Assembly (NCBI GenBank): GCA_012270585.1
Contig: JAAXIB010000084.1
Span: 1 to 64,000 of the forward strand
Source of the DNA: Nitrospirales bacterium
GTDB taxonomy: Bacteria > Nitrospirota > Nitrospiria > Nitrospirales > UBA8639
Direction of reading: 5' to 3'
DNA: 64,000 bases
The notes beneath the pieces were generated by a model. That model was not told the origin of the DNA and made no database searches. It was given only the letters and a program-made list of their open reading frames with translations. Numbering within the stretch: the first letter of the stretch is position 1; each line of letters begins with the position of its first letter. Position numbers and translations under genes: made by a program. Shown one piece after another: positions 5,643-22,379 of this stretch.

Positions 5643-7403
5643 TTACATTCTTTCCGGAGCACTGACTCCCAATAACCGAAGTCCATTTTTAATAACCGTT
5701 TGAACCTGTTTTAACAGCACCAACCTGGCCATGGTCAATTCCCGGGAGAAGACTTCTCCGACCAATTCACTCGCTTCCCCGTCATGATCGAGATCACCGG
5801 ACTTTTCCTCGTTGACCTCATCGACTCTCGGCGGAAGGACGCGATGCTTGTAATAAAAAACATGAAGCAAACCTGCAAGTTCGAGAAGATAAAACGTGAT
5901 GCGATGCGGCTCCAAGGTCTTGGCACTCGCTTCGAGCAATCCGGGGAACCCCGATAACTGTTTCATCAGCCGGATTTCTTCCGGCTGTACCAACGCGGAC
6001 AAGGGAGCCTCGCCAACCGGAGACACACGAACCCCTCGTTCTCGGGCCGTCCTGAATAAACTGGCAAGTCGCGCGTGAGCATACTGAACGTAATAGACGG
6101 GATTTTCATTGGACTGCCTCTTCGCCAACTCCAGGTCAAATTCAAGATGGGTATCCGAACGACGCATCAGGAAAAAAAATTTGGCTGCATCGGCACCCAC
6201 TTCATCAACCACGTCCTGAAGCGTGATAAATTCGCCGGCCCGTTTGGACATCTCAACCTTATGCCCACCCCGCAACAGACGCACCATTTGGACCAAAACC
6301 ACCCGCAAGCAATCGTCGCCATAGCCGAAGGCTTTGATCACGGCTTGCATGCGCGAGACGTAGCCATGATGATCCGCACCCCAAATATTAATCAACCATT
6401 CGTAGCCCCGACGCAACTTGTCAAAATGATAAGCGATATCCGAGGCCAAGTAGGTATAGTCACCATCCTGCTTGCAGACCACGCGGTCTTTTTCATCGTG
6501 AAATCGAGAAGACCGGAACCACGTCGCGCCATCCTGTGTAAACACCATATCCCGTTGTTCAAGATCGTTCAGAGCGGCCTGTATTCTTCCCGAAGCAAAC
6601 AACGACGCCTCGCTATACCACGTCTCGAACTCCACTCCGAATTGTGTAAGATCCTCTCTAATGGCTCGCACGAGTTCGTGAGAGGCCCATTGACCACATT
6701 CTCGTCGTGCGTCTTCTGGGTCCAGCGTCAAAAAATGTGCCCCCTTCTCCCGATCCATCGCTTGGGCAAGGACTTTGATATAGTCTCCATGGTAGCCATC
6801 CTCGGGGAAAGAAAATTCCCGGCCATGCATTTCAAGATACCGTGCATAGACCGAATCGGCTAACAGTTTCATCTGGCGACCCGCATCGTTGATATAGTAT
6901 TCTTTATCGACTTCATACCCTGCCGATCGCAGCAATCGGGCCAAGGCTTCACCCAGGGCAGCCCCACGTCCATGTCCCATATGGAGCGGACCGGTGGGAT
7001 TGGCACTGACAAATTCCAAAAGAACCCGTTGCCCTTGTCCTCTGTTGCTGTGCCCGTACAGGTCGCCCGTTCGCTCAATCTCTTCGAGTACCGAAAACCA
7101 ACAATTCGGGCGAAGCGTGAAATTCAAGAATCCGGGTGGTGCCACCGAGACCTTTTCAAGAAAAGCACAAGAGGTCTGGAGTTGATCGGCGATCACGTGT
7201 GCCACTTCCAACGGCGGCCGTTTTTCCTGTTTTGCAATGACCATGGCCACACTTGAGGACAAATCTCCCCATTCCTCCCGTTTGGGAAAATCAACAACAG
7301 GCTGAGGAAAATCCGTTGATTGCAAGCCCCCCCGTTGCTTCGCTTGCAGCAGAGCGTTGGTAATGGCAGAGGCAACCTGTTCTTGGACAATTCCGGCAGA
7401 CAT
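5643..7403 (-). CDS. argS: Arginyl-tRNA synthetase
   Basis: Class I synthetase that charges tRNA-Arg in the cytoplasm. The HIGH-type motif is in NPTGPLHMGHGRGAALGEA, and KVEMSKRAGEFITL occupies the KMSKS position. The C-terminal DALR anticodon-binding domain follows (for example ENPVYYVQYAHARLASLF). I place the start at 7403 (MSAGIVQEQVASAI), giving 586 residues close to the family norm; the open frame runs 25 codons further but those residues are not family-like. It is separated from tgt by about 100 bases. Confidence 0.94.
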   Translation of the reverse strand: MSAGIVQEQVASAITNALLQAKQRGGLQSTDFPQPVVDFPKREEWGDLSSSVAMVIAKQEKRPPLEVAHVIADQLQTSCAFLEKVSVAPPGFLNFTLRPNCWFSVLEEIERTGDLYGHSNRGQGQRVLLEFVSANPTGPLHMGHGRGAALGEALARLLRSAGYEVDKEYYINDAGRQMKLLADSVYARYLEMHGREFSFPEDGYHGDYIKVLAQAMDREKGAHFLTLDPEDARRECGQWASHELVRAIREDLTQFGVEFETWYSEASLFASGRIQAALNDLEQRDMVFTQDGATWFRSSRFHDEKDRVVCKQDGDYTYLASDIAYHFDKLRRGYEWLINIWGADHHGYVSRMQAVIKAFGYGDDCLRVVLVQMVRLLRGGHKVEMSKRAGEFITLQDVVDEVGADAAKFFFLMRRSDTHLEFDLELAKRQSNENPVYYVQYAHARLASLFRTARERGVRVSPVGEAPLSALVQPEEIRLMKQLSGFPGLLEASAKTLEPHRITFYLLELAGLLHVFYYKHRVLPPRVDEVNEEKSGDLDHDGEASELVGEVFSRELTMARLVLLKQVQTVIKNGLRLLGVSAPERM

Positions 7404-7586
7404 GACGCTATAGAGAAAATAAGCAGGCGGAGAAGCGGGCTGGGAATCTAACACAGCCTCTCCGGGCCTCGCAAGCAAAGGGACTCTCTTCTGTCATCGG
7501 TGTTTGTTGGCTTGTATCAGGCTGAACATCTCCGGGATGGATGAGCAAAACAGGTTGCCGTGTGATAAATTGCCTATGAATGAGAA

Positions 7587-8276: not shown

Positions 8277-10103
8277 TCAGGCCTGGTCCTTGGCCTTGCG
8301 CCGGTTGGCGCGCCGTCCCAAGACCCAGCCTTCCACAATCACAATCCCCACCGTAATCAATCCCGGATAGACATACGTGCTCAATGGAATCGGCGGCTCC
8401 ATCACCAAGTAATAGAACGCTGAGACCGCCATCTTGCGTCCCACGTCCCCGTTGTGCCCGTCCCAGGCAAAAAAGACCATCGGAATATATTTGCCCTGCT
8501 CCAAGTACGCCACTTCTTCGTAGTCCCCCTTCAAGGGCCGTTTCACGATTACAGTCCACCGCCCATCCGCCCACTCCGCTTTCACGACCTCCACTTCTTC
8601 TTGAAAGTCCAGTTCGGTGAGGTCCTGATCCCAGCCCGTGCCTTCATACACTCCCAAGGTGCCGTCCGCGGTCCATTTGGTCAGATCCACGGCAAACGTC
8701 TCGTCACCCCAGAAGTACCGCGGCTTCCGCGGGGCCGGCAGTTCCTGCCATTTGATCGGGAATTGGAACGCCACCCCGTCGTTGTACACGGCGTAGCCGT
8801 CTTTTTGCTTGGCCGCAATCGATTCCTGATGGAACGGGTCTTCAGCAAACGTGCTGCCTTGCGGGGCTTGTTCTTCCACCCCATAATCGCCCAAGTTGAC
8901 TTCCGTGGGATCCCAGTCCACCTCGTCTTCCTGGATGCTCTTGGTCCGGTCATCCCACCTGAACATGAATGAGATGTGCGTGTCGTTGTATAACGCCTGC
9001 ACCCACATATCGTCGATCCGGTTCACGAAATTCCGAGGCTTGTGCGTGATCTGCCCGCCCATGGCAATCCACCGACGGGGAATCAGGTTCCACCGCTCGT
9101 CGTGTTCGTCCGTGGGTAATTCGCCCTCCACGTATTTAGACGGAATCACGAAGTTGCTCTTGGGTTTGTCCGTCAGGGGGTCGATCTGTAATGGCTGGGA
9201 GGTCGAGAAGGTTTGCGCGATCTCGTCGGTCACCTCGCCTTGCGGCGCTTCGATCACTTGCTCCCGCTCACAGAGTGAATTCACGTAATTGGCGATGTCC
9301 CACCGCTCATCCACGCTGGTGTTGTCCGCGAACGACGGCATCGGCGTCCCGTTCAGGCCCGTGGAGAACGTCCGGAAGATGTTCTCCACGTTGTACGGAT
9401 CCTGCCGGCTGCCCCGGAAATTCCAGCATTTGTGCCAGTCCGCCGGTTGAATGCTGAACCCCCAGTCGTCCTTCAGGTTAAAGGCGTTTCCGTCCCCCCG
9501 GCCTTCCAGCCCGTGACATTCGATGCATTTCTTCTCCACCACCAATTCCGAGCCCCGCTTGATGGACTCCGGGGTGTTCGGCTTCGGGGTCAACTGGTCC
9601 AACTGCAGCACGAACAGTTCTTCGAATTCTTCATCCTGCCACGACCGATCCTGCACGAGTTGCGTCGTCACGAACGCCAGCACGTTTTTGCGTTGCTGTT
9701 CCGTGAGAATACCTTCCCACGACGGCATGGCCGAGCCCGGCAGGCCGTGTTCCACCGTCTCAAATAAATCCACGTCGATCAAGGGTAATTGCCCGCTGGC
9801 CGTATGCCGGATCTTGAAGGTGCCCGCGTTGAAATTCCGCGGTCGCGGCCACAGCCGCACCGCCCCTGGGCCGTCCCCGGCCCCTTCCACACCGTGACAC
9901 CATACGCATTTGGTAAAGTACACCCGTTTGCCCGCTTCAATCTGTTCCGCCGGCGGGGGCGCCGGCAGCCCTTGCTGCTTGAAGCCTTCAGGGAGGTCTT
10001 CCTGGGCCACACTACCCACCGGCAGCCCCAGACCCAGCATGACACTCACGCCCACGCACACGCCCAACCGGGCCACCTTGGTTCCATATCTGCTATTGCT
10101 CAT
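8277..10103 (-). CDS. Di-haem cytochrome c with NXR-gamma/ethylbenzene-dehydrogenase-type haem domain
   Basis: The 608-residue exported protein has a signal peptide (residues 1-33), two class I cytochrome c domains with CVWCH (66-70) and CIECH (193-197), then a region (about 320-570) resembling the haem-b subunit domain of ethylbenzene dehydrogenase and NXR gamma (NFVNRIDDMWVQALYNDTHISFMFRWDD). A C-terminal membrane anchor (YVYPGLITVGIVIVEGWVLG) and basic tail follow. It is last in the operon behind the CydA-like oxidase and two other cytochromes, so it probably passes electrons between a periplasmic donor and the oxidase. No catalytic molybdenum subunit is encoded here, so calling it NxrC would be an over-reach. 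Its fold is inferred from motifs. Confidence 0.8.
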   Translation of the reverse strand: MSNSRYGTKVARLGVCVGVSVMLGLGLPVGSVAQEDLPEGFKQQGLPAPPPAEQIEAGKRVYFTKCVWCHGVEGAGDGPGAVRLWPRPRNFNAGTFKIRHTASGQLPLIDVDLFETVEHGLPGSAMPSWEGILTEQQRKNVLAFVTTQLVQDRSWQDEEFEELFVLQLDQLTPKPNTPESIKRGSELVVEKKCIECHGLEGRGDGNAFNLKDDWGFSIQPADWHKCWNFRGSRQDPYNVENIFRTFSTGLNGTPMPSFADNTSVDERWDIANYVNSLCEREQVIEAPQGEVTDEIAQTFSTSQPLQIDPLTDKPKSNFVIPSKYVEGELPTDEHDERWNLIPRRWIAMGGQITHKPRNFVNRIDDMWVQALYNDTHISFMFRWDDRTKSIQEDEVDWDPTEVNLGDYGVEEQAPQGSTFAEDPFHQESIAAKQKDGYAVYNDGVAFQFPIKWQELPAPRKPRYFWGDETFAVDLTKWTADGTLGVYEGTGWDQDLTELDFQEEVEVVKAEWADGRWTVIVKRPLKGDYEEVAYLEQGKYIPMVFFAWDGHNGDVGRKMAVSAFYYLVMEPPIPLSTYVYPGLITVGIVIVEGWVLGRRANRRKAKDQA

Positions 10104-10126: not shown

Positions 10127-11092
10127 TTAATCCCAGGTCCGGGGATAGTAGCCCGTGTGCCAGTATTCGAACATCACCACTTTCCAGATTTCATCCACCG
10201 TCAGGTGCTGCTCCCACGGCGGCATCACCGAGGCCCACGGGAAGCCTTCCCCCGGAAGCCCGATCCCGCCTTTCGACACCCGCCAGAACACAAACGTCTC
10301 TTGGAGCTGCGCGATCGTCCCCGCGTCCGTGAAGTTCGCCGGAATCGGGTTGAACGCATACGCCCATAACCCCCGGCCGTTCAGATTATCCCCGTGACAG
10401 AAGTGGCAGTTCTGAAAGAAAATCTCTCCCCCTTCCCGCACGTATTTGATGTACCCCTCCGCGTTGGGGTCCCACGGATTGTAGTCAGGGTTGTTCACGT
10501 CTTTCATCAACCGCCCCATGGCCTGCTCCACGATCCGCGCGTCCGTGTACGCCTGGTCGTACTTGCCTTCGTTGTTCACCCGATAGGGGTTCTCCACCAC
10601 TTGCAGCACAAAGGTCTTGCCGTGCACCTTCGTGGTCGCCGGCGGCGCCGGATGCACCGTTCGCAACTCGATCGGTTCTTCAAAACTGGGTAAGAACGAG
10701 TTATAGGCAAAGCCGCCCAGCGCCAACGGGATCACGATCAAGGCCACCGTGCGCATGCCCCTGTGAAACCCGCTGATCCCATCCATCACGTTCAGCACCG
10801 GCCGCTTGAACTCCTGCCATTCGCCTTCCGAGCCCGATACCCACATGAAAATCCCACAGGCCGAGACCGTGCCGTAAATGGCCCGTACACTGAACGGAAT
10901 CGGGGGATAAATACGGTACTTCAAATACAGTTGGATGTAGATCCACACCCCCACCCCCGCCCAGAACTTGGGAATCCCCATGCCCGATCGATTCAGCGCC
11001 CAGTTCACCAACGCAAACACTAAAATCGAACCGGCTAACTCCGAAATCATCTGCATCGGCATGTAGCCTTCGACTAACTTTAACCAGGTCAT
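10127..11092 (-). CDS. Membrane-anchored mono-haem cytochrome c
   Basis: A 321-residue protein with about four hydrophobic segments in the first 135 residues (SILVFALVNWAL, FWAGVGVWIYIQLYL, IYGTVSACGIFMWV, ALIVIPLALGGFAY) and a C-terminal periplasmic cytochrome c domain with CHFCH at 229-233. PEGFPWASVMPPW-like sequence near the end may hold the axial Met. AGGAG precedes the ATG. It sits 24 bases upstream of the di-haem protein and 34 bases downstream of the next cytochrome. It is a likely membrane electron conduit for the CydA-like oxidase. The family is unnamed to me. Confidence 0.82.
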   Translation of the reverse strand: MTWLKLVEGYMPMQMISELAGSILVFALVNWALNRSGMGIPKFWAGVGVWIYIQLYLKYRIYPPIPFSVRAIYGTVSACGIFMWVSGSEGEWQEFKRPVLNVMDGISGFHRGMRTVALIVIPLALGGFAYNSFLPSFEEPIELRTVHPAPPATTKVHGKTFVLQVVENPYRVNNEGKYDQAYTDARIVEQAMGRLMKDVNNPDYNPWDPNAEGYIKYVREGGEIFFQNCHFCHGDNLNGRGLWAYAFNPIPANFTDAGTIAQLQETFVFWRVSKGGIGLPGEGFPWASVMPPWEQHLTVDEIWKVVMFEYWHTGYYPRTWD

Positions 11093-11126: not shown

Positions 11127-12443
11127 TTAATTAAAGTCTTCTAATGACGGCAGATCCTGTCCTTCTTTTAAGCTGGACAGATAATTCACGATTTTGTTGA
11201 CGGCGCCTGCACTGAGTTTTTGCCCGAAATCTTTCGGCATCTGGTTGTCCGGAAAATCTTTTACGACGTACATGCTGGGATTTAAAATCGACTCGGTGAT
11301 GTATTCACGGGTCGACGTCGCATGGCCCTTATACCCCGGATCCTTCAGCCGTTGGGGAGCATTACTGCCTTCCATCAACAAGGGACCCACTTTTCCGGTT
11401 GCTCCTTCAATGCCGGGAATCGTATGACACGCAGGGCACCCCGCTTTCATGAAGAGATCCGTAATCGGCTCCTCCCCGGTTGCCAAGACTCCTCCCGCGG
11501 CTTCATCCCCTTCGGCACTCGCCTGCGGCCGCTCGCCTTCAGGAATAAACTTTTCATATGACGCTGAAATTTCCTCGTATGTGGGTGCTTCCTTCCCTTC
11601 ACGAACGTACAGCCAGGTATCCACCGCTGCCAATTCTCCGAGGGTCAGCGAAATTGGTGGCTTGTGAATTCTGGGCATAGGGCTTTCCGTGTCGTTTGTT
11701 CCTTTCACGCCAAATCCCGGCACGACAAAGCAACTCGGACAGGCATGCGACTCGGCGATATATTCCTGACCGGTCGTGGCCGTCCCCGATCCCTCAAACG
11801 CCTCTTTTTGCACGGTATCGCGCGCAGCAGGATCGTTCATATGATATTTTTCGTGCTTCAACCGTTCTTCTGCTCGGGCAGGAACATCCCAAAGATTCGG
11901 GGCCCGTTCACTCAGGAAGCCCTGATTGAACCCATGACAAAGAGGGCATTGGCCCTTGCCGATGGCACCCTGCACCTTACTTTGCCCAAGACCGCCAAAA
12001 ATAATCTTTTCACCCTCATCGGCCAGTTGCTGAGGAGTCATGCTCTGGAAGTCCAGCTTCACCTCCGGCGGCGGGAATCCGCCTTCGACCTGGGGCAACC
12101 AATTACCATACCCGGACAGCGCCGCAGCCACGAAGAACATGAACCCCCCAATTTTCATGAGGGCCCCGATATTGGTGAAGTAAATGCCCATAATGTAGGC
12201 CAAAGAGGTAATCATCACCAATGAGACGGGCAGCAGTCGACTTTCCCCATAGAAATTATTCTTGTAATTCGCAATGGCAATAAAGGCCATAAACGTGCAC
12301 AGGATACCGATAAACGTCTTGAACGTGACATTCTTCTTTTGGACGGGATCGGTCAATTTCACCTGAAAATACACCAACAGCCCTATCAAAAAGGCAAACG
12401 CCGGCCATCCGATCGAGATCGCTTCCGTAATTAATTCAACCAC
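11127..12443 (-). CDS. Membrane-anchored di-haem cytochrome c
   Basis: A 438-residue protein beginning with about four membrane spans (residues 5-115) and followed by two cytochrome c modules with CPLCH (166-170) and CPACH (336-340). A third cysteine pair, CPSCF (235-239), lacks the haem His. It aligns with NPSMYVV of the second module, just before the presumed axial Met, so it is not a haem site. I chose the GTG at 12443 because GGAGGGG lies six bases upstream; a TTG five codons earlier overlaps that site. A 13-bp hairpin lies just upstream of the ribosome-binding site. It is third in the oxidase operon. Confidence 0.84.
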   Translation of the reverse strand: MVELITEAISIGWPAFAFLIGLLVYFQVKLTDPVQKKNVTFKTFIGILCTFMAFIAIANYKNNFYGESRLLPVSLVMITSLAYIMGIYFTNIGALMKIGGFMFFVAAALSGYGNWLPQVEGGFPPPEVKLDFQSMTPQQLADEGEKIIFGGLGQSKVQGAIGKGQCPLCHGFNQGFLSERAPNLWDVPARAEERLKHEKYHMNDPAARDTVQKEAFEGSGTATTGQEYIAESHACPSCFVVPGFGVKGTNDTESPMPRIHKPPISLTLGELAAVDTWLYVREGKEAPTYEEISASYEKFIPEGERPQASAEGDEAAGGVLATGEEPITDLFMKAGCPACHTIPGIEGATGKVGPLLMEGSNAPQRLKDPGYKGHATSTREYITESILNPSMYVVKDFPDNQMPKDFGQKLSAGAVNKIVNYLSSLKEGQDLPSLEDFN

Positions 12444-12460
12444 CTTGCCCCTCCACAAAT

Positions 12461-12528: not shown

Positions 12529-14493
12529 TTAATGACCAGTTGCAGGTTGTGGCGCGGCACCCGGAACGGGTTGCGTCGCAGGCACGGGCGCTTTCTTGGC
12601 ACCTAGCGCTCCAAGCCAAAAGACAAACAGAATTGTAATCCAGAAGAACAATACGTTAAAGGAAATCACATTCGCGCCAAACCCAATAGTATGCGTATAC
12701 GCCCAAGGCGAATTATCACGCATAATCTCATTGACGTGCCAGAACAACCTTACCGACGACCGGATATATCCCATTAAGCCCATCATCCAGGTAAAGGCCG
12801 TTGCCAGCATAATCAGGGCATACTGTGATCGTGGTGCGATCTGACCCCACCGAATCGGCCCGAGTTCCCTGGACTGCTTCAACATCGCCAGATTCAACGC
12901 CGACCCGAAAAACAAGCACGAGAGCGTTCCGGCGACCTGTGGAACCGAGAGGCCTATTCGAACGTTGGCCGGGATGAAATACCCGTAACAAGCCACCCAG
13001 ATATTATTAAGATGGGCCACCACAAAGAATGTGATCAGGAAGATATTTCCGAACTTTGCCCACTTGACCGCCGGCACCCTGTTGCCACGCTGATACCATA
13101 TAAAACTGGCGATCGTGGTCATAATAATCGCGTTAATTCCGCCATTCTTAGCCGACATCACGCCATAGTTCCCCAAGACCGGATGCTGCTGACCTCCCAT
13201 GGCCTTTAACTCAGCCGGCGTCATCACAATGGTGTGGGGAGTGATAAAGACCAACAGTCCCACGACCAAAATAAACACAAAATACTTAATATAACGCTGG
13301 AACCTCTCCCCCCCGGTCATTCTTCCGAGGGCCTGCCAGAGATAATAGTTCGTCGTCAAAAACAGGATGCCGATCATGGTGGCCTGAATGATAAACAACC
13401 AGGCCAACAGCCCGCCCATCAAGGTAATGCCCATTTGTTGACGGTAGGCATACACTTCGCGCATGAGCCAATAGCCGGCAAACGGCAGAGGAATCAGGAA
13501 GGCTACCCCGAGCGCCATCGCGATGTATCCCATCCAGTCGTAATGGGCTCGCTCCTCATCATTCTTCGCCGACAGAAACCGGTAAGCGGCATACGCCGCC
13601 ACCACGCCGCCACCAAAGGCCATATTCCCGAGAATCCGATGCACGTTCAGGGGATTCCAGAGCGCCGTATGGATGACATGCCAAATATTTCCCAGATATC
13701 GTCCCTGCTCATCCACCCCAGCGGGCGACATCATAAAACCAATCCAGGAATTGGCCAGGAACATCAACACCGTTCCAATCACGTTCAACACCACCGACAT
13801 ACTGGCATGGAGCCATTTCAATAACCCATCTTTCATCTTGTCCCAGCCATAGTAGTAGATGTAGAGGGTTCCGCTCTCTGCCACGAACATCAGAGCATAG
13901 ATATGCATCACCGGGCGGAAAATACTGGAAAGATAACCAAAGAAAGCAGGATACAACGTCAGGAACGTGAAGATGAGAATGCCACCGAGGATAGCAGTCA
14001 GCGAGTAGGCCGTCAGGCTGATTTTAATAAAGTCATATGCCAATTGGTCATACTTCTTCGCCATCGCCTTGTCTTTGCTCACCAACCCGGCAAACTCGAT
14101 ACACATACAGAAGATCGGTACGGCCAACACAAAGCTGCCATAGTACAGATGCTGTTGATTGGCCACCCAAAGAAGGACCCGGCTTTCGAAGTTATATCGC
14201 GGATAAAATTCTTCCGTATCGGCAGTCTTCGGGGCCGGCGCACCGATGACAGGACCCTCTGTTTTGTAGTAGACGTCCCTGCCGATTTCAACCTTTACTT
14301 CTTCGCCCTCCACCCCTTCGGCTTCCTGGGCGGCGACGACATCGGGAGGCGGCCCGCCTGCTGCAGGAGCACCTCCGCCGGCCAAGGCCGGTAGTGCCAC
14401 AAAAATCGGAAGCAACAACATGGCTCCCATTGCAAAAAGACCAGTGACTGCCAGGAACTTTTTCCCGGCCTGTCCACTTTTGAGGCGACCCAT
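12529..14493 (-). CDS. CydA-like terminal oxidase with signal peptide
   Basis: A 654-residue polytopic protein related to subunit I of cytochrome bd. After a signal peptide (cleavage near ALPALA, 38) and a periplasmic stretch with DVYYKTEGP, it has more than ten spans. CydA-like anchor points are H115 in QQHLYYGSFVLAVP (haem ligand position), E206 and GWD in FVAESGTLYIYYYGWD, LANSWIGFMMSPAGV, and H285 in NPLNVHR. The quinol-binding loop with GRQPW is absent and no CydB gene is present, so cytochrome c rather than quinol may be the donor (inference). The ATG at 14493 has AGGAGG upstream; an alternative start 25 codons earlier lacks one. CydA-like oxidases without CydB are known in Nitrospira. 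Confidence 0.85.
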   Translation of the reverse strand: MGRLKSGQAGKKFLAVTGLFAMGAMLLLPIFVALPALAGGGAPAAGGPPPDVVAAQEAEGVEGEEVKVEIGRDVYYKTEGPVIGAPAPKTADTEEFYPRYNFESRVLLWVANQQHLYYGSFVLAVPIFCMCIEFAGLVSKDKAMAKKYDQLAYDFIKISLTAYSLTAILGGILIFTFLTLYPAFFGYLSSIFRPVMHIYALMFVAESGTLYIYYYGWDKMKDGLLKWLHASMSVVLNVIGTVLMFLANSWIGFMMSPAGVDEQGRYLGNIWHVIHTALWNPLNVHRILGNMAFGGGVVAAYAAYRFLSAKNDEERAHYDWMGYIAMALGVAFLIPLPFAGYWLMREVYAYRQQMGITLMGGLLAWLFIIQATMIGILFLTTNYYLWQALGRMTGGERFQRYIKYFVFILVVGLLVFITPHTIVMTPAELKAMGGQQHPVLGNYGVMSAKNGGINAIIMTTIASFIWYQRGNRVPAVKWAKFGNIFLITFFVVAHLNNIWVACYGYFIPANVRIGLSVPQVAGTLSCLFFGSALNLAMLKQSRELGPIRWGQIAPRSQYALIMLATAFTWMMGLMGYIRSSVRLFWHVNEIMRDNSPWAYTHTIGFGANVISFNVLFFWITILFVFWLGALGAKKAPVPATQPVPGAAPQPATGH

Positions 14494-14584: not shown

Positions 14585-14701
14585 TTACCTGAGAATATAG
14601 AAATAATCCAAGCCCTGCATATCCATCAGCACCCAGTCGAGGAACTGAAAATATGCCACGGAAATCACGATTGAAATGATAAGGTACAAAGCCGTCTGCA
14701 T
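14585..14701 (-). CDS. Unannotated 38-aa single-span membrane peptide
   Basis: A short open frame starting MQTALYLIISIVISVAYF and ending GLDYFYILR, with one predicted membrane span at residues 4-26 and a short acidic tail. GAGGAGGGG lies just upstream of the ATG, a strong ribosome-binding site. It sits 28 bases after another small membrane peptide and 91 bases before the CydA-like oxidase, on the same transcript. Small subunits such as CydX stabilise canonical bd oxidases, but this one shows no sequence likeness to CydX that I can see. I infer an oxidase accessory subunit; no function is proven. Confidence 0.68.
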   Translation of the reverse strand: MQTALYLIISIVISVAYFQFLDWVLMDMQGLDYFYILR

Positions 14702-14729
14702 ATGAACCCCTCCTCTTTCGGTTCCTTTT

Positions 14730-14843
14730 TCAACACGGACATTGAATGCCGGCAAGCCAATAAAAAAACCACAAGCTTACGGCACAGGTCACATAGAATA
14801 TCCCCTTGCCCAGCTTGATTGGAAACGGATCACTTTTCGCCAT
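14730..14843 (-). CDS. Unannotated 37-aa single-span membrane peptide
   Basis: Open frame beginning MAKSDPFPIKLGKGIFYV and ending LAGIQCPC, with one span (about residues 14-32) rich in aromatic residues and a terminal CxC. AAAGGAAAAG precedes the ATG. It is the first gene after the TATAAT box at 14878-14883 and lies 28 bases before the 38-aa peptide. The C-terminal CPC could bind a metal or anchor a thiol (speculation). The combination of promoter, ribosome-binding site and clean membrane segment argues that it is translated. Confidence 0.65.
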   Translation of the reverse strand: MAKSDPFPIKLGKGIFYVTCAVSLWFFYWLAGIQCPC

Positions 14844-14877: not shown

Positions 14878-14906
14878 ATTATACGCTTGACACATTTCTT
14901 CAAGAT
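14878..14906 (-). promoter_or_regulatory. Promoter of the CydA-like oxidase operon
   Basis: On the minus strand a perfect TATAAT (14878-14883) lies 35 bases upstream of the 37-aa peptide start. The -35 region (about 14899-14906) is poor, which would fit an activated promoter. It overlaps the divergent plus-strand promoter. Confidence 0.6.
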
Positions 14907-14914
14907 GTGATACT
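14887..14914 (+). promoter_or_regulatory. Divergent plus-strand promoter
   Basis: Perfect TTGACA (14887-14892), a 16-base spacer, and an extended -10 TG-T-GATACT ending at 14914. It faces away from the oxidase operon and would start transcription about 28 bases before the ATG of a 34-aa membrane peptide. Confidence 0.65.
14891..14909. promoter_or_regulatory. Dyad between divergent promoters, possible operator
   Basis: CACAT and ATGTG arms (14891-14895 and 14905-14909) flank a CTTCAAG core. The dyad lies inside the spacer of the plus-strand promoter and over the -35 region of the minus-strand one, so a single bound regulator could act on both. The symmetry is seen; a regulator is inferred. 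Confidence 0.45.
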
Positions 14915-14948: not shown

Positions 14949-15053
14949 ATGCGCAAGAACGCAAAATTGTTCGATATTATAGTGTTGGCCGGAATGGTTG
15001 TCAACATTCTTTTGGCCGTCTTTTTGATCCTGTATTACTTCGACTTTCTCTAG
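14949..15053 (+). CDS. Unannotated 34-aa membrane peptide, divergent from the oxidase operon
   Basis: Open frame starting MRKNAKLFDIIVLAGM and ending ILYYFDFL: a basic start followed by one strong membrane span (residues 9-30). An in-frame TGA directly before the ATG fixes the start. A good promoter lies upstream at 14887-14914, but the ribosome-binding site is weak. It ends seven bases before the convergent formylglycine-enzyme-like gene. Its aromatic C-terminal end resembles the style of the two tiny peptides on the other strand. The region could instead encode a small RNA. Confidence 0.5.
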   Translation: MRKNAKLFDIIVLAGMVVNILLAVFLILYYFDFL

Positions 15054-15059
15054 CCTTCG

Positions 15060-15971
15060 CTAATCCCGGGGATGGGCAGCCAGCGTGCGGTGAGGAGTAT
15101 TTTGTCGCTCTGACGCAGCACAACGAAAGCCTATGGTTTCATCCCGAAAATCGGGAACCATAAAATTTCTGGCCGTAATCCTCAAGTCGCTTCCATAGCT
15201 GGTATACCCGGCACCACGAAGAGTCTTGTACCCACCACGATCGGCAAAATTCGCTTCTCCGGGTTCACTGGGATGGCGAGTTTGCTCTTCATACCAATTG
15301 TCGACCCATTCCATCAGGTTTCCAAAGCCGTCATGGACACCAAAAGGGCTTCGATCCAATGGGAACGAGCCAACGGACGCCGTGGCTTCATATCCATCCT
15401 CGCCGCCTCCCAAATTCGCCTTGTGGATCCTCGGAGAGTTTCCCCATGGCCATAAACGGCCGTCTATCCCGCGCATCGCTTTTTCCCATTCGGCTTCGCC
15501 GGGCAGACGTTTTCCTTTCCACTTGCAATACGCATCGGCATCATGCCAGGAGACGTAGGCAACGGGCTGATTGGGCCCACGCAATTGGGCCAACCGTTTG
15601 GCATACCTGGACGGAGGGCCTGGTTTTCGATGACCCGTCTGGTCCACAAATGCGCGATAGTGGTGGTTCGTTACCTCATACCGATCAATCCAAAATCCCT
15701 CAAGGATCACGAGACGCTCGGGGCGTTCATTAAACCCGCCCTGGCTGGTCCCCTGAACAAACTGCCCGGGAGGAATAAACACCATTTCTTCTTGGATGAT
15801 AGGTTCGGGTGGGGCGGAAGGAGAAGACCCATGCACCTGAACAGGTTGGACGACCTCCGCAAGATCGGGATCAGGGGGGGGAGCCTTGGTTCCGCGTAAA
15901 ATTCCCGATACCGGCATGCCCACCATGAACAAAATCACGGCAAGCAGGATCAGTTTCAATCTCCCGTCCAT
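15060..15971 (-). CDS. Formylglycine-generating-enzyme-like (SUMF1) protein, exported
   Basis: A 303-residue protein with an N-terminal signal or anchor (MDGRLKLILLAVILFMVGMP) and an FGE-sulfatase fold: MVFIPPGQFVQGTS, FWIDRYEVTNHHYRAFVD, PVAYVSWHDADAYCKWKGKRLPGEAEWEKA, WPWGNSP, GNLMEWVDNWYE and GFRCA at the end. The two catalytic cysteines of true FGE before the final GFRCA are absent, so sulfatase activation is unlikely. The start at 15971 follows the upstream homologue by 41 bases. Adjacent homologues suggest a binding or structural role in the oxidase cluster (inference). Confidence 0.85.
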   Translation of the reverse strand: MDGRLKLILLAVILFMVGMPVSGILRGTKAPPPDPDLAEVVQPVQVHGSSPSAPPEPIIQEEMVFIPPGQFVQGTSQGGFNERPERLVILEGFWIDRYEVTNHHYRAFVDQTGHRKPGPPSRYAKRLAQLRGPNQPVAYVSWHDADAYCKWKGKRLPGEAEWEKAMRGIDGRLWPWGNSPRIHKANLGGGEDGYEATASVGSFPLDRSPFGVHDGFGNLMEWVDNWYEEQTRHPSEPGEANFADRGGYKTLRGAGYTSYGSDLRITARNFMVPDFRDETIGFRCAASERQNTPHRTLAAHPRD

Positions 15972-16012
15972 GGTCGCGCAGCCTCGATAGATCCCTGCTC
16001 TGACACCCGCAG

Positions 16013-16927
16013 TCAGGATGCTGGTTGTACGGCCTCGACGTCTTTGGCGCAACGGAACCCGATCGTCGCGTCGGTTCTCCACATTTTAGCTGAAAACCGT
16101 TTCGTTAATCTCGCGTTGAGTTTGGAATCACGCCAGGTTCCGCCACGAATGACTTTAAATTCCGTACTGTCCGGACCGGAAGGATCGCGAAATGGTGAGT
16201 CGTGATAATATTGGGGATCATAGGTATCCGCAACCCATTCAGCCACGTTTCCCGTCATGTCGTAGATCCCATACGGACTCCGTCCGCCTTCAAAAGAGCC
16301 CACGGGCGCCAAATACTTGAACCCGTCGTCTTCCCCGTCGCTATTGGAAACCATGTAGTTGAACTCATTTCCCCAAGGATACAGTCGTCGACCCTCGCCA
16401 CGAGCGGCTTTTTCCCATTCGGCTTCGGTCGGCAACCGTTTCCCCGCCCACCGGCAATAGGCAAAAGCATCATTCCAGCCAATACCCACCACGGGAAAAT
16501 CCGGGTCAACGAGTTTTGCAATATCTTCTTCGAAGACCGGCACCTGGGGTTTCTCTCGCTTGGTCATCTTGACAAAACGAGCGTATTCCGACTGGGTGAC
16601 TTCCTTGAGATCGATAAAGTACGTTCGCACGTACACCGGATGAGCAGGGGCTTCATCGGGATCCCCCTGCTCATACCCCATGGTAAAAGGCCCTTCGGGG
16701 ACTTCGACCATCTCACGACCTTCATCTCCGACCAGGGTGCGATACATCGAAAAATCTTGGACTTTCACCGGGGTGATGACCCGAGGTTTGGTTGTTTGAG
16801 ACTTCGAGGTCAACCGATCCAATTCTTCTTTCCCCTTATACGTTTCGTAGATCAGCATGACCATCATCAGGATAAACGAGGCAAAAACAAAGATGATGGA
16901 GCCGATGAGCACCCCGCGATTTTCCAT
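16013..16927 (-). CDS. Formylglycine-generating-enzyme-like (SUMF1) protein, membrane-anchored
   Basis: A 304-residue paralogue of the next gene. An N-terminal span (GVLIGSIIFVFASFILMMVMLI) is followed by MVEVPEGPFTMGYEQGDPDEAP, YFIDLKEVTQSEYARFVK, PVVGIGWNDAFAYCRWAGKRLPTEAEWEKAARG, YPWGNEFN, MTGNVAEWVADTY, VIRGGTWRDS and GFRCAKD. As in its partner, the cysteine pair needed for formylglycine formation is missing. The ATG at 16927 gives a sensible anchor; longer forms include repeat-derived sequence. It lies in the second CydA-like cluster. Confidence 0.86.
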   Translation of the reverse strand: MENRGVLIGSIIFVFASFILMMVMLIYETYKGKEELDRLTSKSQTTKPRVITPVKVQDFSMYRTLVGDEGREMVEVPEGPFTMGYEQGDPDEAPAHPVYVRTYFIDLKEVTQSEYARFVKMTKREKPQVPVFEEDIAKLVDPDFPVVGIGWNDAFAYCRWAGKRLPTEAEWEKAARGEGRRLYPWGNEFNYMVSNSDGEDDGFKYLAPVGSFEGGRSPYGIYDMTGNVAEWVADTYDPQYYHDSPFRDPSGPDSTEFKVIRGGTWRDSKLNARLTKRFSAKMWRTDATIGFRCAKDVEAVQPAS

Positions 16928-17390: not shown

Positions 17391-18032
17391 TTATTCCGCA
17401 CGAACCTCAATTGAACCGAAATCTATTTCCACCCCGTGGCCACTTTGCAGGGAAATTCCCCACGCCCGCGGAGCAGGTTCATGATCATGAATCTCCTTAA
17501 AGTCCCTGTAGGCATTGACCTCTTCTTCCACCCATTCACCCACAGGATGAAGGCCTGAACGAACCACGACCTCCGCCGCGCCGAAGAATCCACCATCCGT
17601 GATGGAACCCGGGGGTTTCGTGCCACTCCAGACGTACTTTGTCGACACCGGAATAAACATCAAATCCGTATCCAAATTTGCAAAGAGTGCCGCAATAAAC
17701 TCAGCCTTCTCCGGGACAACGTGCAGGCGCCACCGCCATTTTAAAATAGGGTGAGTTCGGGGATTCCAATCGATGTTCTTGGTATACACCCGCTGATTCG
17801 CCCCCTTGCCTTTCAGGAACAGGGTGTCCCCTTGACGGTGAACAGCATATGCCTCTCTTGCGGTGATCGTACTTCGTGAGCCTTCCCATCCTTTCGGGAA
17901 CTGTTCCTCATCAGGATGTTGAAAATTTTCGAGCGTCACCACCTGCGAGAAAGCCGGTTCATTCGCCATGGCAAAAGACATGAAGAACACCAGCAGGGCA
18001 GAGCATTTCCTGAGTATTCTTCCCATCCTCAT
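17391..18032 (-). CDS. Exported DUF3047 protein
   Basis: A 213-residue protein with a signal peptide (residues 1-30) and a beta-rich domain with DUF3047 features: [54 protein letters not shown] and [20 protein letters not shown]. The function of the family is unknown; the fold looks carbohydrate- or lipid-binding. Its ATG overlaps the TGA of the CydA-like gene (ATGA), which implies tight coupling to the oxidase. Confidence 0.8.
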
Positions 18033-19894
18033 GCCGACTCCTCTCTCGAGAATGTCTGCACGAAGGAGACGCTTTCAGCCTGGTCGTCCTTTTCCACGAC
18101 GGCCAACCGTTTGTCCCTCGTGGCCAGCCAAAACATGAAAAACACCGAAACCCAGAACAACAGCATGTTGATGGTCACCATTTTGGCGGCAAAGATAATG
18201 GGAGGGGTAAAGGCCCACGGGGACAGATCCGCCATCAATTCATTCACGTGCCACCCCAACCGACCGGCCGACCGGATATACCCCATCAAGCCCATCACCC
18301 AGGAAAAAGTCGCGGCGACCCCGAACAACGCCACCATCCCGCGTACGGAGATCCTGCCCCATTGGATGGGACCCCGAAGCCGGCTCCCCTTCAACAGAAA
18401 ATGATTGATCGACAACCCTCCGAGCAGGACCGTCGCCGTCGTCGCCCCCTGCGGAATGGACAACCCCACCCGAACGTGGGCGGGGATAAAAAATCCGTAG
18501 ACCGCCACCCAGACGATATTGGCCATACCCGCGATGAACAACACCGCGATCAAGATGTTTCCTGCCGCAGCCCAAGGGACGGTAATGACCCGATTGGCGC
18601 GACGATACAGCAGGTAGCTCAAGGCCGTCAGGCAGATCATGATGTTGACGGCGCCGTTTTTGGCGGACATCACCCCGAATTGCCCGATGACGGGATGCTG
18701 CGCTGCGCCCATGGCTTTCATTTCACTCGGAGTCATGGCAATCGTATGCGGAGTGAACCAGACCAGAAACGACACCATCAGGCCACCAAGGATGATTTTG
18801 AAATAGGGATGATACCGTTCCCCATCCCGCAACCGTCCCAAGGACTGCCAGATGTAATAATTGATGCCCAGAAACAGAGCGCCGATGGTGGTGGCCTGAA
18901 CGACAAACAGCCAGGACAACAACCCGCCCATCATGGTCATGCCCATCTCCTGACGGAATTCGAAGACGGAGCGCATCAGCCAATACCCGGCAAAGGGCAT
19001 GGGGAGCAAGGCGCACACCACCACGACAATGAACACGTAGCCCACCCAATCGTAATACGCGCGCTCTTCCGGGACCCGGGTCTTCAAAAACCGGTACGCC
19101 GCGTAGGCCACGACCACGGCTCCCCCGGACATCAGGTCAGCCAGAAACCGGTGAGCATTGAGCGGATTCCACAACGGCGAATGCAACAAATGCCAGACGT
19201 TCCCCAGAAACTGCCCCTCGGCATTCACCCCCGCGGGCGCCATCATGAAAGACGCCCAGGAGTTGGCCAGCAGGAGTAACAGCACACCCATGGCATTCGC
19301 GACGACCCCGATCGACAGATGCACCCATTTCCCGATTCCCTGGGCCAGGCGGTCCCAACTGTAGTAGTACAGCACGAGGAGAAAGGATTCGCCCAAAAAC
19401 ACCGCGGCATACAGCGGCATCATCTGTTTGAACGTCGAGCCCATGTACGACATGAAAACGGGATAGAACGTCAAGAACGCGCCGAGCATGACGCCGCCGA
19501 GCAGCGCCGTCACCGAAAGCGAGAGCACCCCCACGCGAAGAATATCGCGACCGAGTCCGTCGTAGCGCTGGGCTGCCTGCGGATCGCGGCGGGACAGGCC
19601 CAGGAATTCCAGGAGAAACGCAAACAACGGCAGCGCCAGGACGAACCCACCGAAATACGTATGCTGTTGCGTAACGAGCCAGATGACGATCCGGTTATTG
19701 AGCGGTTGCCAAAGCGGGTAGGTGGATCCAGTTTCCTCGGCCGGAGGGCCTTGAGGGGTTCCTGCGGTCTTATAATAGACGTCCTCCGTGAGGGAAGAGA
19801 CAGCCGGACCGGCCCACCCCGTCAAGGGAGTGACGAGTGAACAGCCCAGGACAAACAACAGGAGCACTGCGGTCTTCACGAAAGCATCTCTCAC
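18029..19894 (-). CDS. Second CydA-like terminal oxidase
   Basis: A 621-residue paralogue of the oxidase at 12.5-14.5 kb. After a signal peptide (to about residue 29) it has DVYYKTAGTP, then CydA-like features: H78 in TQQHTYFGGFVLALP, E169 with YYSWD, LANSWASFMMAPAGV, and H248 in NPLNAHR. The quinol loop is again missing and no CydB is nearby. The start is taken as the GTG at 19894, which overlaps the previous stop (GTGA) and has AGGGAGA upstream. It is coupled to a 355-aa membrane protein before it and DUF3047 after it, so its operon partners differ from those of the first copy. Confidence 0.84.
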   Translation of the reverse strand: MRDAFVKTAVLLLFVLGCSLVTPLTGWAGPAVSSLTEDVYYKTAGTPQGPPAEETGSTYPLWQPLNNRIVIWLVTQQHTYFGGFVLALPLFAFLLEFLGLSRRDPQAAQRYDGLGRDILRVGVLSLSVTALLGGVMLGAFLTFYPVFMSYMGSTFKQMMPLYAAVFLGESFLLVLYYYSWDRLAQGIGKWVHLSIGVVANAMGVLLLLLANSWASFMMAPAGVNAEGQFLGNVWHLLHSPLWNPLNAHRFLADLMSGGAVVVAYAAYRFLKTRVPEERAYYDWVGYVFIVVVVCALLPMPFAGYWLMRSVFEFRQEMGMTMMGGLLSWLFVVQATTIGALFLGINYYIWQSLGRLRDGERYHPYFKIILGGLMVSFLVWFTPHTIAMTPSEMKAMGAAQHPVIGQFGVMSAKNGAVNIMICLTALSYLLYRRANRVITVPWAAAGNILIAVLFIAGMANIVWVAVYGFFIPAHVRVGLSIPQGATTATVLLGGLSINHFLLKGSRLRGPIQWGRISVRGMVALFGVAATFSWVMGLMGYIRSAGRLGWHVNELMADLSPWAFTPPIIFAAKMVTINMLLFWVSVFFMFWLATRDKRLAVVEKDDQAESVSFVQTFSREESA

Positions 19895-20958
19895 CGGGGG
19901 TCTCCCTGCCCGATCTCGACGGGCTTTCGTCCCGACGTCGCCCATCCGGTTTTGGCTAAAATTTCCATCACGAACGGACAACGTGCCAAACCCTCGGAGA
20001 ATTCGCCTTGTGTCTGAGTCTCAACAAAAATCCGGGCTCCCAGGAAGTAGCCGTACCCCGCCATCAGCCCCGCGGTCACCCCGCCGACGACCAAGTGAAC
20101 GAGAAGGGCCGCATCCTCAACCCGCAACACGAACGCGATGAACCCGAACTGCACTAAATAGTAAGTAACCGCAAAAGTCAAACACGGCCACAGCCAGAAC
20201 CGGCAGGCTTCCCACCACGATCCTATCCTGAAGCGTTCCGGGAAGTCTTCCAGTGGACGTTTTCCGGACAAAAAGGCTCCATGGGCGAAACACGCGGCCA
20301 CGACACAAACCAGAATCGCCTGGCCCACCTCCCTCCCTTCGCCGGTCCAGCCCGCCCGGACCGCGACCGCGGTCATTCCACCGGCAACGACGCCCGCTCC
20401 CACCCATCGGACCAAATGGAAAAAGTCGCGCCGGAGCAACTCGCGAAACGACCCGCCGTCGGGAAAGGTCACCATCCGCACACCCTGGGATTCCATGCGG
20501 ACCACGTGTCCGATCTCAAAGGCATCCCGGGTGACGGCCGTGCAGGGGATAATCAGGGCCATCATGGCCGGCCCATCAGGATGGAGAAGAAAATTGTAAT
20601 CGGCAAAGAGGGCCAGGATCGCCAAGACCAGCAACGAAAGCTGCACGCCGTAGACAAACCCGATCCATCCGCCCACCCAGAAAAGACGACCGGGAGCCTC
20701 GGTGCGACAAACCTGGGCGAGAGTCCGGGTCCGTCCCATCGCGTACGCCCAATACGCGGTGAGCATCGCCAGGACCCCGCTCATCGCCAACAACACCAGC
20801 GGGTCGGACAGCGGAAGAACGTCTTTTGAGAGACGGTAGAGGATAAAGGCCACGAACCCCGGAATGAGCATCACCCAACGCTTCCGCTTGCGAACGTCGG
20901 GTTCCGTCACGACCGCATTCAGTTGGGGAATCACCCGGAGCGCGAGTCGATGCAACAT
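19891..20958 (-). CDS. Polytopic membrane protein of unknown family
   Basis: A 355-residue protein with about eight to nine hydrophobic segments, for example WVMLIPGFVAFILY, LVLLAMSGVLAMLTAYWAYAMG, WIGFVYGVQLSLLVLAIL, AILVCVVAACFAHGAFL and LVHLVVGGVTAGLMAGYGYFLG. No haem or metal motif is obvious. Its stop overlaps the GTG of the second CydA-like oxidase, so it may be a partner subunit in place of CydB (inference). I do not recognise the family. Confidence 0.72.
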   Translation of the reverse strand: MLHRLALRVIPQLNAVVTEPDVRKRKRWVMLIPGFVAFILYRLSKDVLPLSDPLVLLAMSGVLAMLTAYWAYAMGRTRTLAQVCRTEAPGRLFWVGGWIGFVYGVQLSLLVLAILALFADYNFLLHPDGPAMMALIIPCTAVTRDAFEIGHVVRMESQGVRMVTFPDGGSFRELLRRDFFHLVRWVGAGVVAGGMTAVAVRAGWTGEGREVGQAILVCVVAACFAHGAFLSGKRPLEDFPERFRIGSWWEACRFWLWPCLTFAVTYYLVQFGFIAFVLRVEDAALLVHLVVGGVTAGLMAGYGYFLGARIFVETQTQGEFSEGLARCPFVMEILAKTGWATSGRKPVEIGQGDPR

Positions 20959-21175: not shown

Positions 21176-21655
21176 TCACGACCCCGAAGCCGCCATGCCG
21201 AAATAGCGGGCCTTGATTTCTTCTATCAACTCCACCGTGACTTCAGACAGGCCCCTGTCCTGAGCCGTCCGCTCCAACTCCACGCGCGCCATCGCACGAA
21301 CCGGTCCCGGGATTCGTGACAAACGACGTTTCGCATCAGGATGCCAGGACACCATCCCATGATTCCCGGCTTCCGTCATCAGGTCGGTCGAGACCACTTT
21401 GATGCTCTTTCGATCTGCATAGTCTTCCACCTCCTGCCGGACAAGAGGTTCCACGTACGATGGCAGCCGGTCCAAACGATGTTGGGCCTCATCAGTCCAG
21501 GCCGGACGGTCGAAAAACACGCTTGCCTTTCGAGGGTCCGTCTCGATTCCCAGACGAAAACCACACTGTTCACAGTGATAACGCAGAAAGACCCGGACAT
21601 CTTCCCCTTCTTCAAGGGCCTCACATCGGAAATCCGAGCCGCAGGCACATCGCAT
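21176..21655 (-). CDS. Zinc-ribbon protein with tandem PCP_red-like domains
   Basis: A 159-residue protein. The N-terminus has two cysteine pairs (CACGS and CEQCG), a likely zinc ribbon. Two repeats follow: WTDEAQHRLDRLPSYVEPLVRQEVEDYA and WHPDAKRRLSRIPGPVRAMARVELERTA, each resembling the small helical PCP_red domain found at the C-terminus of light-independent protochlorophyllide reductase. It is five bases after the DUF420 gene, in one operon with a methyltransferase. A role in tetrapyrrole or metal handling is inference. Confidence 0.7.
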   Translation of the reverse strand: MRCACGSDFRCEALEEGEDVRVFLRYHCEQCGFRLGIETDPRKASVFFDRPAWTDEAQHRLDRLPSYVEPLVRQEVEDYADRKSIKVVSTDLMTEAGNHGMVSWHPDAKRRLSRIPGPVRAMARVELERTAQDRGLSEVTVELIEEIKARYFGMAASGS

Positions 21656-21662
21656 CACGGGG

Positions 21663-22379
21663 CTACCCGATTTTTCCGGGATACAAAATATACAACATGG
21701 TATACGTGATACTGCCGGTCACGAACAAAATGCAATACACCACCATGGTAAACCGGCCCAGGACTCGATGACGTCGCGCACCATTCGGCCACATGCGTTG
21801 GATGGCGACCTCGATGCCAAACACAAGGGCAATGAGTATGAGGAGTCCGAGATAGACGCTGAATTTGCCCATGGAAAACCCGCTGGCGACCACGCGACTG
21901 AGAAACAAGTGCAGCACCAGGGCCGTCACTCCACCAAAAATGATTGCCATTTTTTTTCCGGTGGTTTTCAGGATGGCCTCTCGTAACGTTCGTTGCCCAT
22001 TGATAAACGTTTGAGAGCGAAACCCCAGGACAATCATGTAGATGGCCATGATCAATCCGATCACGACCAGAAGAATGTGAAAGGTCAAGAGAGGAACAAA
22101 CACGTTATCATACAACGCCTGTGACCCGCCGAACCCTTCCTTGCCTTCAAAGGCCAAGACGCCGAGCTGACGAAACAGATAATAACTCGTAAAAAATGCC
22201 AACATGGCGACCATGCCGCCAAGCATCAGCCAATGATGCCCGCTCCCATGACTCTTTCTGGCCTGGACCCACCCGACGATAAACAGCCCGGTGAACAATG
22301 TAGCCATCAACTGACTGATATCGGCCCCCAGCGTGGCATGCGTCCCGACAAACCCCGGCTCTCGTAACCATTCAGCCAT
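21663..22379 (-). CDS. DUF420 membrane protein
   Basis: A 238-residue protein with about six spans and histidines placed as in DUF420: THATLGADISQLMATLFTGL, FFTSYYLFR, LTFHILLVVIGL and HRVLGRFTMVVYCILFVTGS. DUF420 proteins are often encoded next to terminal oxidases and are thought to help haem or copper insertion. Its ATG touches the stop of the methyltransferase, and the PCP_red gene follows directly. Here it probably serves the CydA-like enzymes. Confidence 0.82.
   Translation of the reverse strand: MAEWLREPGFVGTHATLGADISQLMATLFTGLFIVGWVQARKSHGSGHHWLMLGGMVAMLAFFTSYYLFRQLGVLAFEGKEGFGGSQALYDNVFVPLLTFHILLVVIGLIMAIYMIVLGFRSQTFINGQRTLREAILKTTGKKMAIIFGGVTALVLHLFLSRVVASGFSMGKFSVYLGLLILIALVFGIEVAIQRMWPNGARRHRVLGRFTMVVYCILFVTGSITYTMLYILYPGKIG

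Follow-up and report, generated by a model that had tools for sequence, protein, structure and literature searches.

The gene cluster formed by bd-like_3 and the alternative NxrC_2 ranks, according to the account in PMC6606698, among the 40 genes with the strongest transcription in N. moscoviensis, and a homologous cluster is described in PMC3578206 from Nitrospina and from strictly anaerobic anammox bacteria. In PMC3578206, the bd-like protein beside NXR is termed enigmatic, and the quinol-site residues are reported to be missing in the bd-like protein of the cluster. The terminal oxidase proposed for Nitrospira in PMC6606698 is another paralogue, bd-like_2 (NIDE0901, OR-N2). The OR-N proteins themselves are proposed, as summarised in PMC10839748 and PMC12342949, to be cytochrome c-oxidising O2 reductases.

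The window, that is, the whole 64 kb stretch of DNA analysed here, comes from a genome of 2.5 Mb whose relatives, judged by kinship and gene content, make up class Nitrospiria. It contains a cluster with the make-up of bd-like_3/alternative NxrC_2: a CydA-like gene, two cytochromes c, an NxrC-like gene and a second CydA-like copy nearby, the components and their order being the same as in the cluster described from Nitrospira, Nitrospina and anammox bacteria (PMC6606698, PMC3578206). The cluster descriptions in these two papers make no mention of small peptides, and A, B and C are what the present analysis adds to them. The features are as follows.

8277..10103, minus strand: alternative NxrC-like gene, whose product combines two cytochrome c domains with a heme b domain of the EB_dh / DMSO-reductase type II gamma-like kind
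10127..11092, minus strand: membrane protein with a C-terminal cytochrome c domain, member of the conserved cluster
11127..12458, minus strand: membrane-anchored cytochrome c, member of the conserved cluster
12529..14493, minus strand: CydA-like gene of the bd-like_3 type, 654 aa, start ATG at 14493; PF01654 match and AlphaFold2 (AF2) fold
14585..14701, minus strand: gene of peptide B, 38 aa, MQTALYLIISIVISVAYFQFLDWVLMDMQGLDYFYILR; one TM helix followed by the motif D...M..QGL
14730..14843, minus strand: gene of peptide A, 37 aa, MAKSDPFPIKLGKGIFYVTCAVSLWFFYWLAGIQCPC; one TM helix, predicted N-in/C-out
14887..14914, plus strand: candidate promoter of gene C, TTGACA-16-GATACT with a TG extension, whose core blocks are conserved when the C-A intergenic regions are aligned
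14949..15053, plus strand: gene of peptide C, 34 aa, MRKNAKLFDIIVLAGMVVNILLAVFLILYYFDFL; one TM helix, invariant Gly and Asn
14976..15004, minus strand: predicted sigma70-type promoter, perfect TTGACA-17-TATAAT, within gene C and pointing to A-B-cydA
18029..19981, minus strand: second CydA-like paralogue, in the bd-like_4 position
21663..22379, minus strand: DUF420 gene; a 47% identical homologue adjoins the unlinked C-A-B trio in Nitrospinota

The order of transcription on the minus strand is A, B, the CydA-like gene, the cytochrome c, the cytochrome b/c protein and NxrC-like. The gap between A and B is 28 nt and that between B and cydA is 91 nt, while C is divergent, its start on the plus strand being 106 nt apart from the start of A on the minus strand. 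The first-pass annotation had described two membrane peptides of 37 and 38 aa, each with a ribosome-binding site, between a perfect TATAAT and a CydA-like oxidase gene in a stretch without CydB. Both frames are present and intact, with one hydrophobic stretch each. The ribosome-binding site is strong for B (GAGGAGG) and weak for A (AGGA), and the CydA-like gene has a perfect AAGGAGG before ATG 14493. The lack of CydB extends to the whole genome, which has no PF02322 match and four CydA-like genes. The count of two peptides was too low, as C had been overlooked; it was found by viewing both strands.

Two genes with FGE-sulfatase domains adjoin C (15060-16082 and 16013-16924, minus strand), and FGE-like genes are also situated next to C in the alphaproteobacterial loci L228 and L229; this family may be part of the module. 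The cluster also encodes, at 21176-21658 on the minus strand, a small protein containing a PCP_red domain (protochlorophyllide reductase subunit), the host being presumed a non-phototroph. In the relative L225, a similar-looking ORF is seen at the matching position.

A, B and C are real protein-coding genes under strong purifying selection. The pooled dN/dS within the genus is 0.079 for A and 0.067 for B, both far from one, and 0.015 for C, the lowest of the three; moreover, the +1 frame of A and B has stops in every genus allele. The first-pass annotation had staked its proposal on these ratios and on conservation in the Nitrospirota, and throughout the class both peptides recur in the same order beside the same gene. 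Since this recurrence is class-wide and coincides with low dN/dS and with the +1-frame stops, A and B are not random. The residues conserved across all A sequences are a Gly ahead of the helix and FFxW at its end; in all B sequences these are Asp, Met and QGL, and in all C sequences, Asp, Gly and Asn. The N-terminal flanks of A and C are positive, which gives both peptides a positive-inside bias.

The periplasmic tail of A ends with CPC in the Nitrospirales, contains His (HGVxxHH-like) in several other groups, and is missing in the Gallionellales. A metal or haem contact of the CPC or His type is possible for this tail, and would not be universal. Extra stand-alone copies of A (L080-L083, L096) have a longer N-terminus, the conserved end WFFYWxNGIQCPC and no CydA nearby. 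Comparison of the neighbourhoods of such copies in G249, G143, G237, G208 and G333 revealed none that was shared, and no annotated copy was matched in plasmid records.

The TATAAT of the first-pass annotation is part of the TTGACA-17-TATAAT promoter at 15004..14976, which is the sole such site in 64 kb. Among 61 distinct C alleles adjoining A, 51 have 12 matches out of 12 to this promoter, whereas none of ten C alleles situated about 2 kb from A reaches even 10 out of 12; the loci that keep the promoter are of the Nitrospirales type. The codons that spell the promoter, ATT-ATA and GTT-GTC-AA, are invariant across the family, whereas neighbouring third positions vary; ATA is seldom used for Ile (11 of 216 in the genes nearby). 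As synonymous differences elsewhere in C are large (pS 0.34–0.49), DNA-level constraint is the simplest reading of the promoter conservation, with a contribution of shared descent. In this simplest reading, the promoter is a candidate regulatory site constrained at synonymous positions, and, as a predicted promoter inside a gene, it would make an unusually clear example of such constraint.

The phylum was represented by 396 genomes, most of the relatives being metagenome bins. At E<=5e-5, all B matches fall within the same class, Nitrospiria, and the A matches show the same class-restricted pattern. C (E<=0.01) is matched in 161 of the 396 genomes. Each of these 161 has, in addition, a CydA-like hit at E<=2.1e-62, a loose criterion owing to the paralogues. 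Of the order members without C, G269, G181, G345, G375, G381 and G385 show CydA matches only at the level of paralogues or as fragments, and in G091 and G333 the CydA gene is cut at or near the contig end. Ahead of the CydA orthologue, distant families of the class, and three families that do not belong to it, have a B-like peptide and in most cases an A-like one as well. C is located nearby within the class, and has the same direction as the other genes (C-A-B-CydA) outside the class.

A scan with divergent CydA yielded loci labelled Nitrospinota, Deltaproteobacteria, Gallionellales, Nitrosomonadales, Acidiferrobacteraceae, Rhodospirillales, Mariprofundus, gammaproteobacteria and others. With iterated profiles, A, B and C are found in most of these loci, in the order (C), A, B, CydA, cytochrome c, cytochrome b/c, alternative NxrC. 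The E-values of the iterated profiles refer to the fetched loci only, the genome-wide profile searches being the independent check. In L150, L153, L154, L157, L159, L194 and L226, a second tandem CydA–cytochrome c–cytochrome b/c–alternative NxrC cluster is situated just upstream of the peptide-bearing one.

The genome-wide searches in Nitrospinota G396-G399 and G402 found one A and one C per genome, away from CydA, with A and B forming a stand-alone pair amid unrelated genes. In three genomes with near-complete contigs of 2.5–3.9 Mb (G434, G472, G482), C, A and B are together, with C divergent as in the window, and adjoin a DUF420 gene that in G472 is 47% identical to the window protein 21663-22379. 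CydA is situated approximately 0.8 to 2.8 Mb from the trio, with cytochrome genes beside it where read (G434, G472). In the loci L240 and L241, the DUF420 (CtaM-type) homologue directly beside the unlinked Nitrospinota trio is at 6838-7548 and 6778-7503, respectively. Of 77 Nitrospinota genomes, 62 have B, always as a single copy; 58 genomes have both B and CydA, four only B, eight only CydA and seven neither (Fisher p=6e-4, uncorrected for phylogeny).

A was undetected in part of the MAGs named Deltaproteobacteria and in some Nitrospinota that retain B, hence it either can be dispensed with in places or has diverged too far to be detected. The CydA of G423 and G425, two outgroup genomes with the labels Myxococcota and Acidobacteria, falls outside the clade; their cytochrome and NxrC-like genes are the same, and the genome-wide search yielded neither A nor C. 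Thus the peptides follow one CydA clade and not the cytochromes. At the other two CydA-like genes of the window genome (contig C66, with bc1) no homologous peptides were found. In general, there is one peptide set per genome, even in the presence of several CydA paralogues, and the set is tied to one CydA clade. The suggestion of a new small-subunit type for CydB-less oxidases is therefore retained in its first part, as the best reading of the peptides, and narrowed in the second, from CydB-less oxidases generally to one clade of CydA.

In five loci of the Acidiferrobacteraceae/Arenicellales type (L153, L159, L160, L167, L226) the helix of A runs on into a monohaem cytochrome c, as identified by Pfam. 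The C-terminus of A accordingly comes to lie in the periplasm, which fits the positive charge found on the N-terminal side of the helix in A and C. In the Acidiferrobacteraceae-type genomes a cytochrome c is anchored in the membrane by A, and the fusion suggests that A lies on the route of the electrons.

The CydA-like protein matches PF01654 with E 1.6e-19. The nearest PDB folds to its AlphaFold2 model (pLDDT 83.8, 55 sequences) are CydA chains of bd oxidases, with TM(query) 0.38–0.43. Nevertheless, the name of oxidase, used in the first-pass annotation, is doubtful for this complex. The protein is a paralogue of the bd-like_3 type, its cluster is reported from anammox bacteria, and contig C66, the window-genome counterpart of the bc1/bd-like (bd-like_2) locus and hence of the proposed oxidase, lacks the peptides. 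Further, in the alphaproteobacterial loci L228 (5026-8322) and L229 (7007-12589) the CydA module adjoins a gene pair of the AioA/AioB molybdoenzyme family. The L229 pair scores above the arsenite-oxidase family cut-offs (TIGR02693/02694), and two MauG-like dihaem proteins adjoin. We take the L229 arrangement to resemble iodate-reductase clusters. Given the NxrC-like and AioA/Idr-like partners, the reported occurrence in anammox bacteria and the position of bd-like_2 as the proposed oxidase, the CydA-like partner is read as a modular electron-transfer complex.

On balance, we consider it fairly probable that the trio of A, B and C represents single-helix subunits of the bd-like_3-type CydA complex. 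This is suggested by selection, fixed order, co-occurrence with one CydA clade, persistence of the peptides when unlinked, the fusion of A with cytochrome c, and the conserved promoter; the four Nitrospinota MAGs with B and no detected CydA, and the eight with the reverse, count against it. The peptides would be single-pass structural small subunits in the inner membrane, together with the CydA-like protein, the two membrane cytochromes c and the alternative NxrC. A and C would span the membrane N-in/C-out with B packing alongside, and the three would take the lateral, helix-contacting places that CydB and CydX/CydH occupy in canonical bd oxidases. There they may hold the CydA-like haem core and position the periplasmic cytochrome c, so that the complex could pass electrons between molybdoenzymes of high potential in the periplasm and the electron pool of the membrane. 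The molybdoenzyme would be nitrite oxidoreductase in nitrifiers and an AioA/Idr-like enzyme in some alphaproteobacteria. The consensus promoter within C would drive A-B-cydA, and the divergent one would drive C. A more specific description, in which the peptides are obligatory subunits of a non-oxidase, modular, CydA-based membrane electron bridge that serves nitrite oxidoreductase or Aio/Idr-like enzymes in many phyla, with the operon promoter inside the gene of an opposite-strand subunit, is offered tentatively.

An alternative is that the complex is a true O2 reductase, a terminal oxidase of the CydAA' type, in which the peptides replace CydX/CydH; as regards membership in a complex, this overlaps with the subunit reading given above. 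The CydA fold, the PF01654 match and the function proposed for the OR-N proteins (PMC10839748, PMC12342949) agree with it. However, the oxidase proposed for Nitrospira in PMC6606698 is a different paralogue, located with bc1 elsewhere in the genome, and the cluster as described in PMC3578206 occurs in anaerobic anammox bacteria and lacks the quinol-site residues. Moreover, the partners encoded in the cluster are NxrC-like and, in L228/L229, also AioA/Idr-like, and we consider the terminal oxidase rather unlikely. The main rival of the subunit reading is that the trio serves the CydA-like protein as dedicated factors for assembly or haem insertion, non-stoichiometric and acting as a small-protein counterpart of CtaM/DUF420; in our estimate this is also unlikely. 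The DUF420 family includes CtaM, an oxidase assembly factor required for the assembly of the aa3 oxidase (PMC4958251), and such a gene, 47% identical to that of the window, is the neighbour of the Nitrospinota C-A-B trio unlinked from CydA, so that an assembly role is equally suggested there. Against it stand the tight linkage ahead of CydA in most phyla, the cytochrome c fusion, which suggests residence of A in the electron path, and the single set per genome, tied to one CydA clade despite several paralogues.

As A and B are short, precede cydA and have the same direction, they might be leader or regulatory ORFs controlling cydA expression. This reading was rejected because of the amino-acid-level selection, the A-B pairs unlinked from CydA and the A-cytochrome c fusion; the conserved TM motifs, the stand-alone A-B pair in the Nitrospinota and the location of C on the other strand disagree with it as well, and it seems highly improbable. 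Finally, short hydrophobic ORFs are common in any genome, and A, B and C might be chance ORFs or annotation noise. Given the conservation across the class, the genome-wide searches and the low dN/dS, this is refuted, its remaining probability being negligible.

A, B and C are probably small subunits, or else dedicated assembly helpers, of a respiratory complex in nitrite oxidisers and other bacteria. The three-peptide set marks one CydA clade across phyla and thus provides a sequence handle on the complex. It tells which CydA paralogues belong to the complex and which extra helices are to be sought in maps and mass spectra, and it permits co-expression of the complete complement.

Among known small subunits, the closest in appearance is CydX (PF08173), also a single-pass membrane peptide of about 37 aa encoded with CydA, which belongs to the cytochrome bd complex. 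However, CydX is a single peptide, whereas here there are three, and it is encoded 3' of cydB in cydABX, whereas A and B are 5' of cydA in a genome without cydB, the partner of CydA in the canonical CydAB oxidase. The CydX motif YxxWxxGx15[E/D] (taken from PMC4325964) is present in none of 116 A, 126 B and 105 C sequences, and the PF08173 profile does not match A, B or C. CydY and CydZ (PF10617, DUF2474) are similar in that they, too, are small proteins with a single helix, encoded in cydAB operons without cydX (PMC4325964), but are located downstream of cydB and have a Trp at the helix start; the PF10617 profile matches none of the three peptides. The first-pass impression that A and B are unlike CydX and CydH is thus borne out and extends to CydY and CydZ. 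Searches of the bd small-subunit PDB chains (CydH/CydX/CydS) gave no match at E<=1 with profiles and none at E<=10 with single sequences, and no usable family match was obtained in Pfam, NCBIfam and PDB with either single peptides or profiles. The matches to Adeno_E3B, Syndecan and the like were rejected as hydrophobic chance matches.

CcoQ, the N-terminus of FixP and subunit IV-type proteins of aa3 oxidases are likewise single oxidase helices, and A is fused to cytochrome c in some genomes. One A member matches FixP_N (E 0.013) and one C member matches COX4_pro_2 (E 0.0014), both matches being weak and isolated. However, the partner of those helices is a haem-copper protein, whereas that of A, B and C is CydA-like. 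The CydAA' OR-N superfamily (Murali et al. 2021, via PMC10839748 and PMC12342949) likewise comprises CydA-like proteins without CydB, which likely have cytochrome c partners. Small subunits are not mentioned in the accounts of the superfamily given by these two papers, and the literature search on small subunits in OR-N and bd-like clusters, which did not include Murali et al. 2021 itself, retrieved no paper on the peptides. The best reading of these comparisons is that A, B and C act like CydX-type small subunits without being members of that family. The small subunits of the bd superfamily would then extend well beyond CydX, CydY and CydZ.
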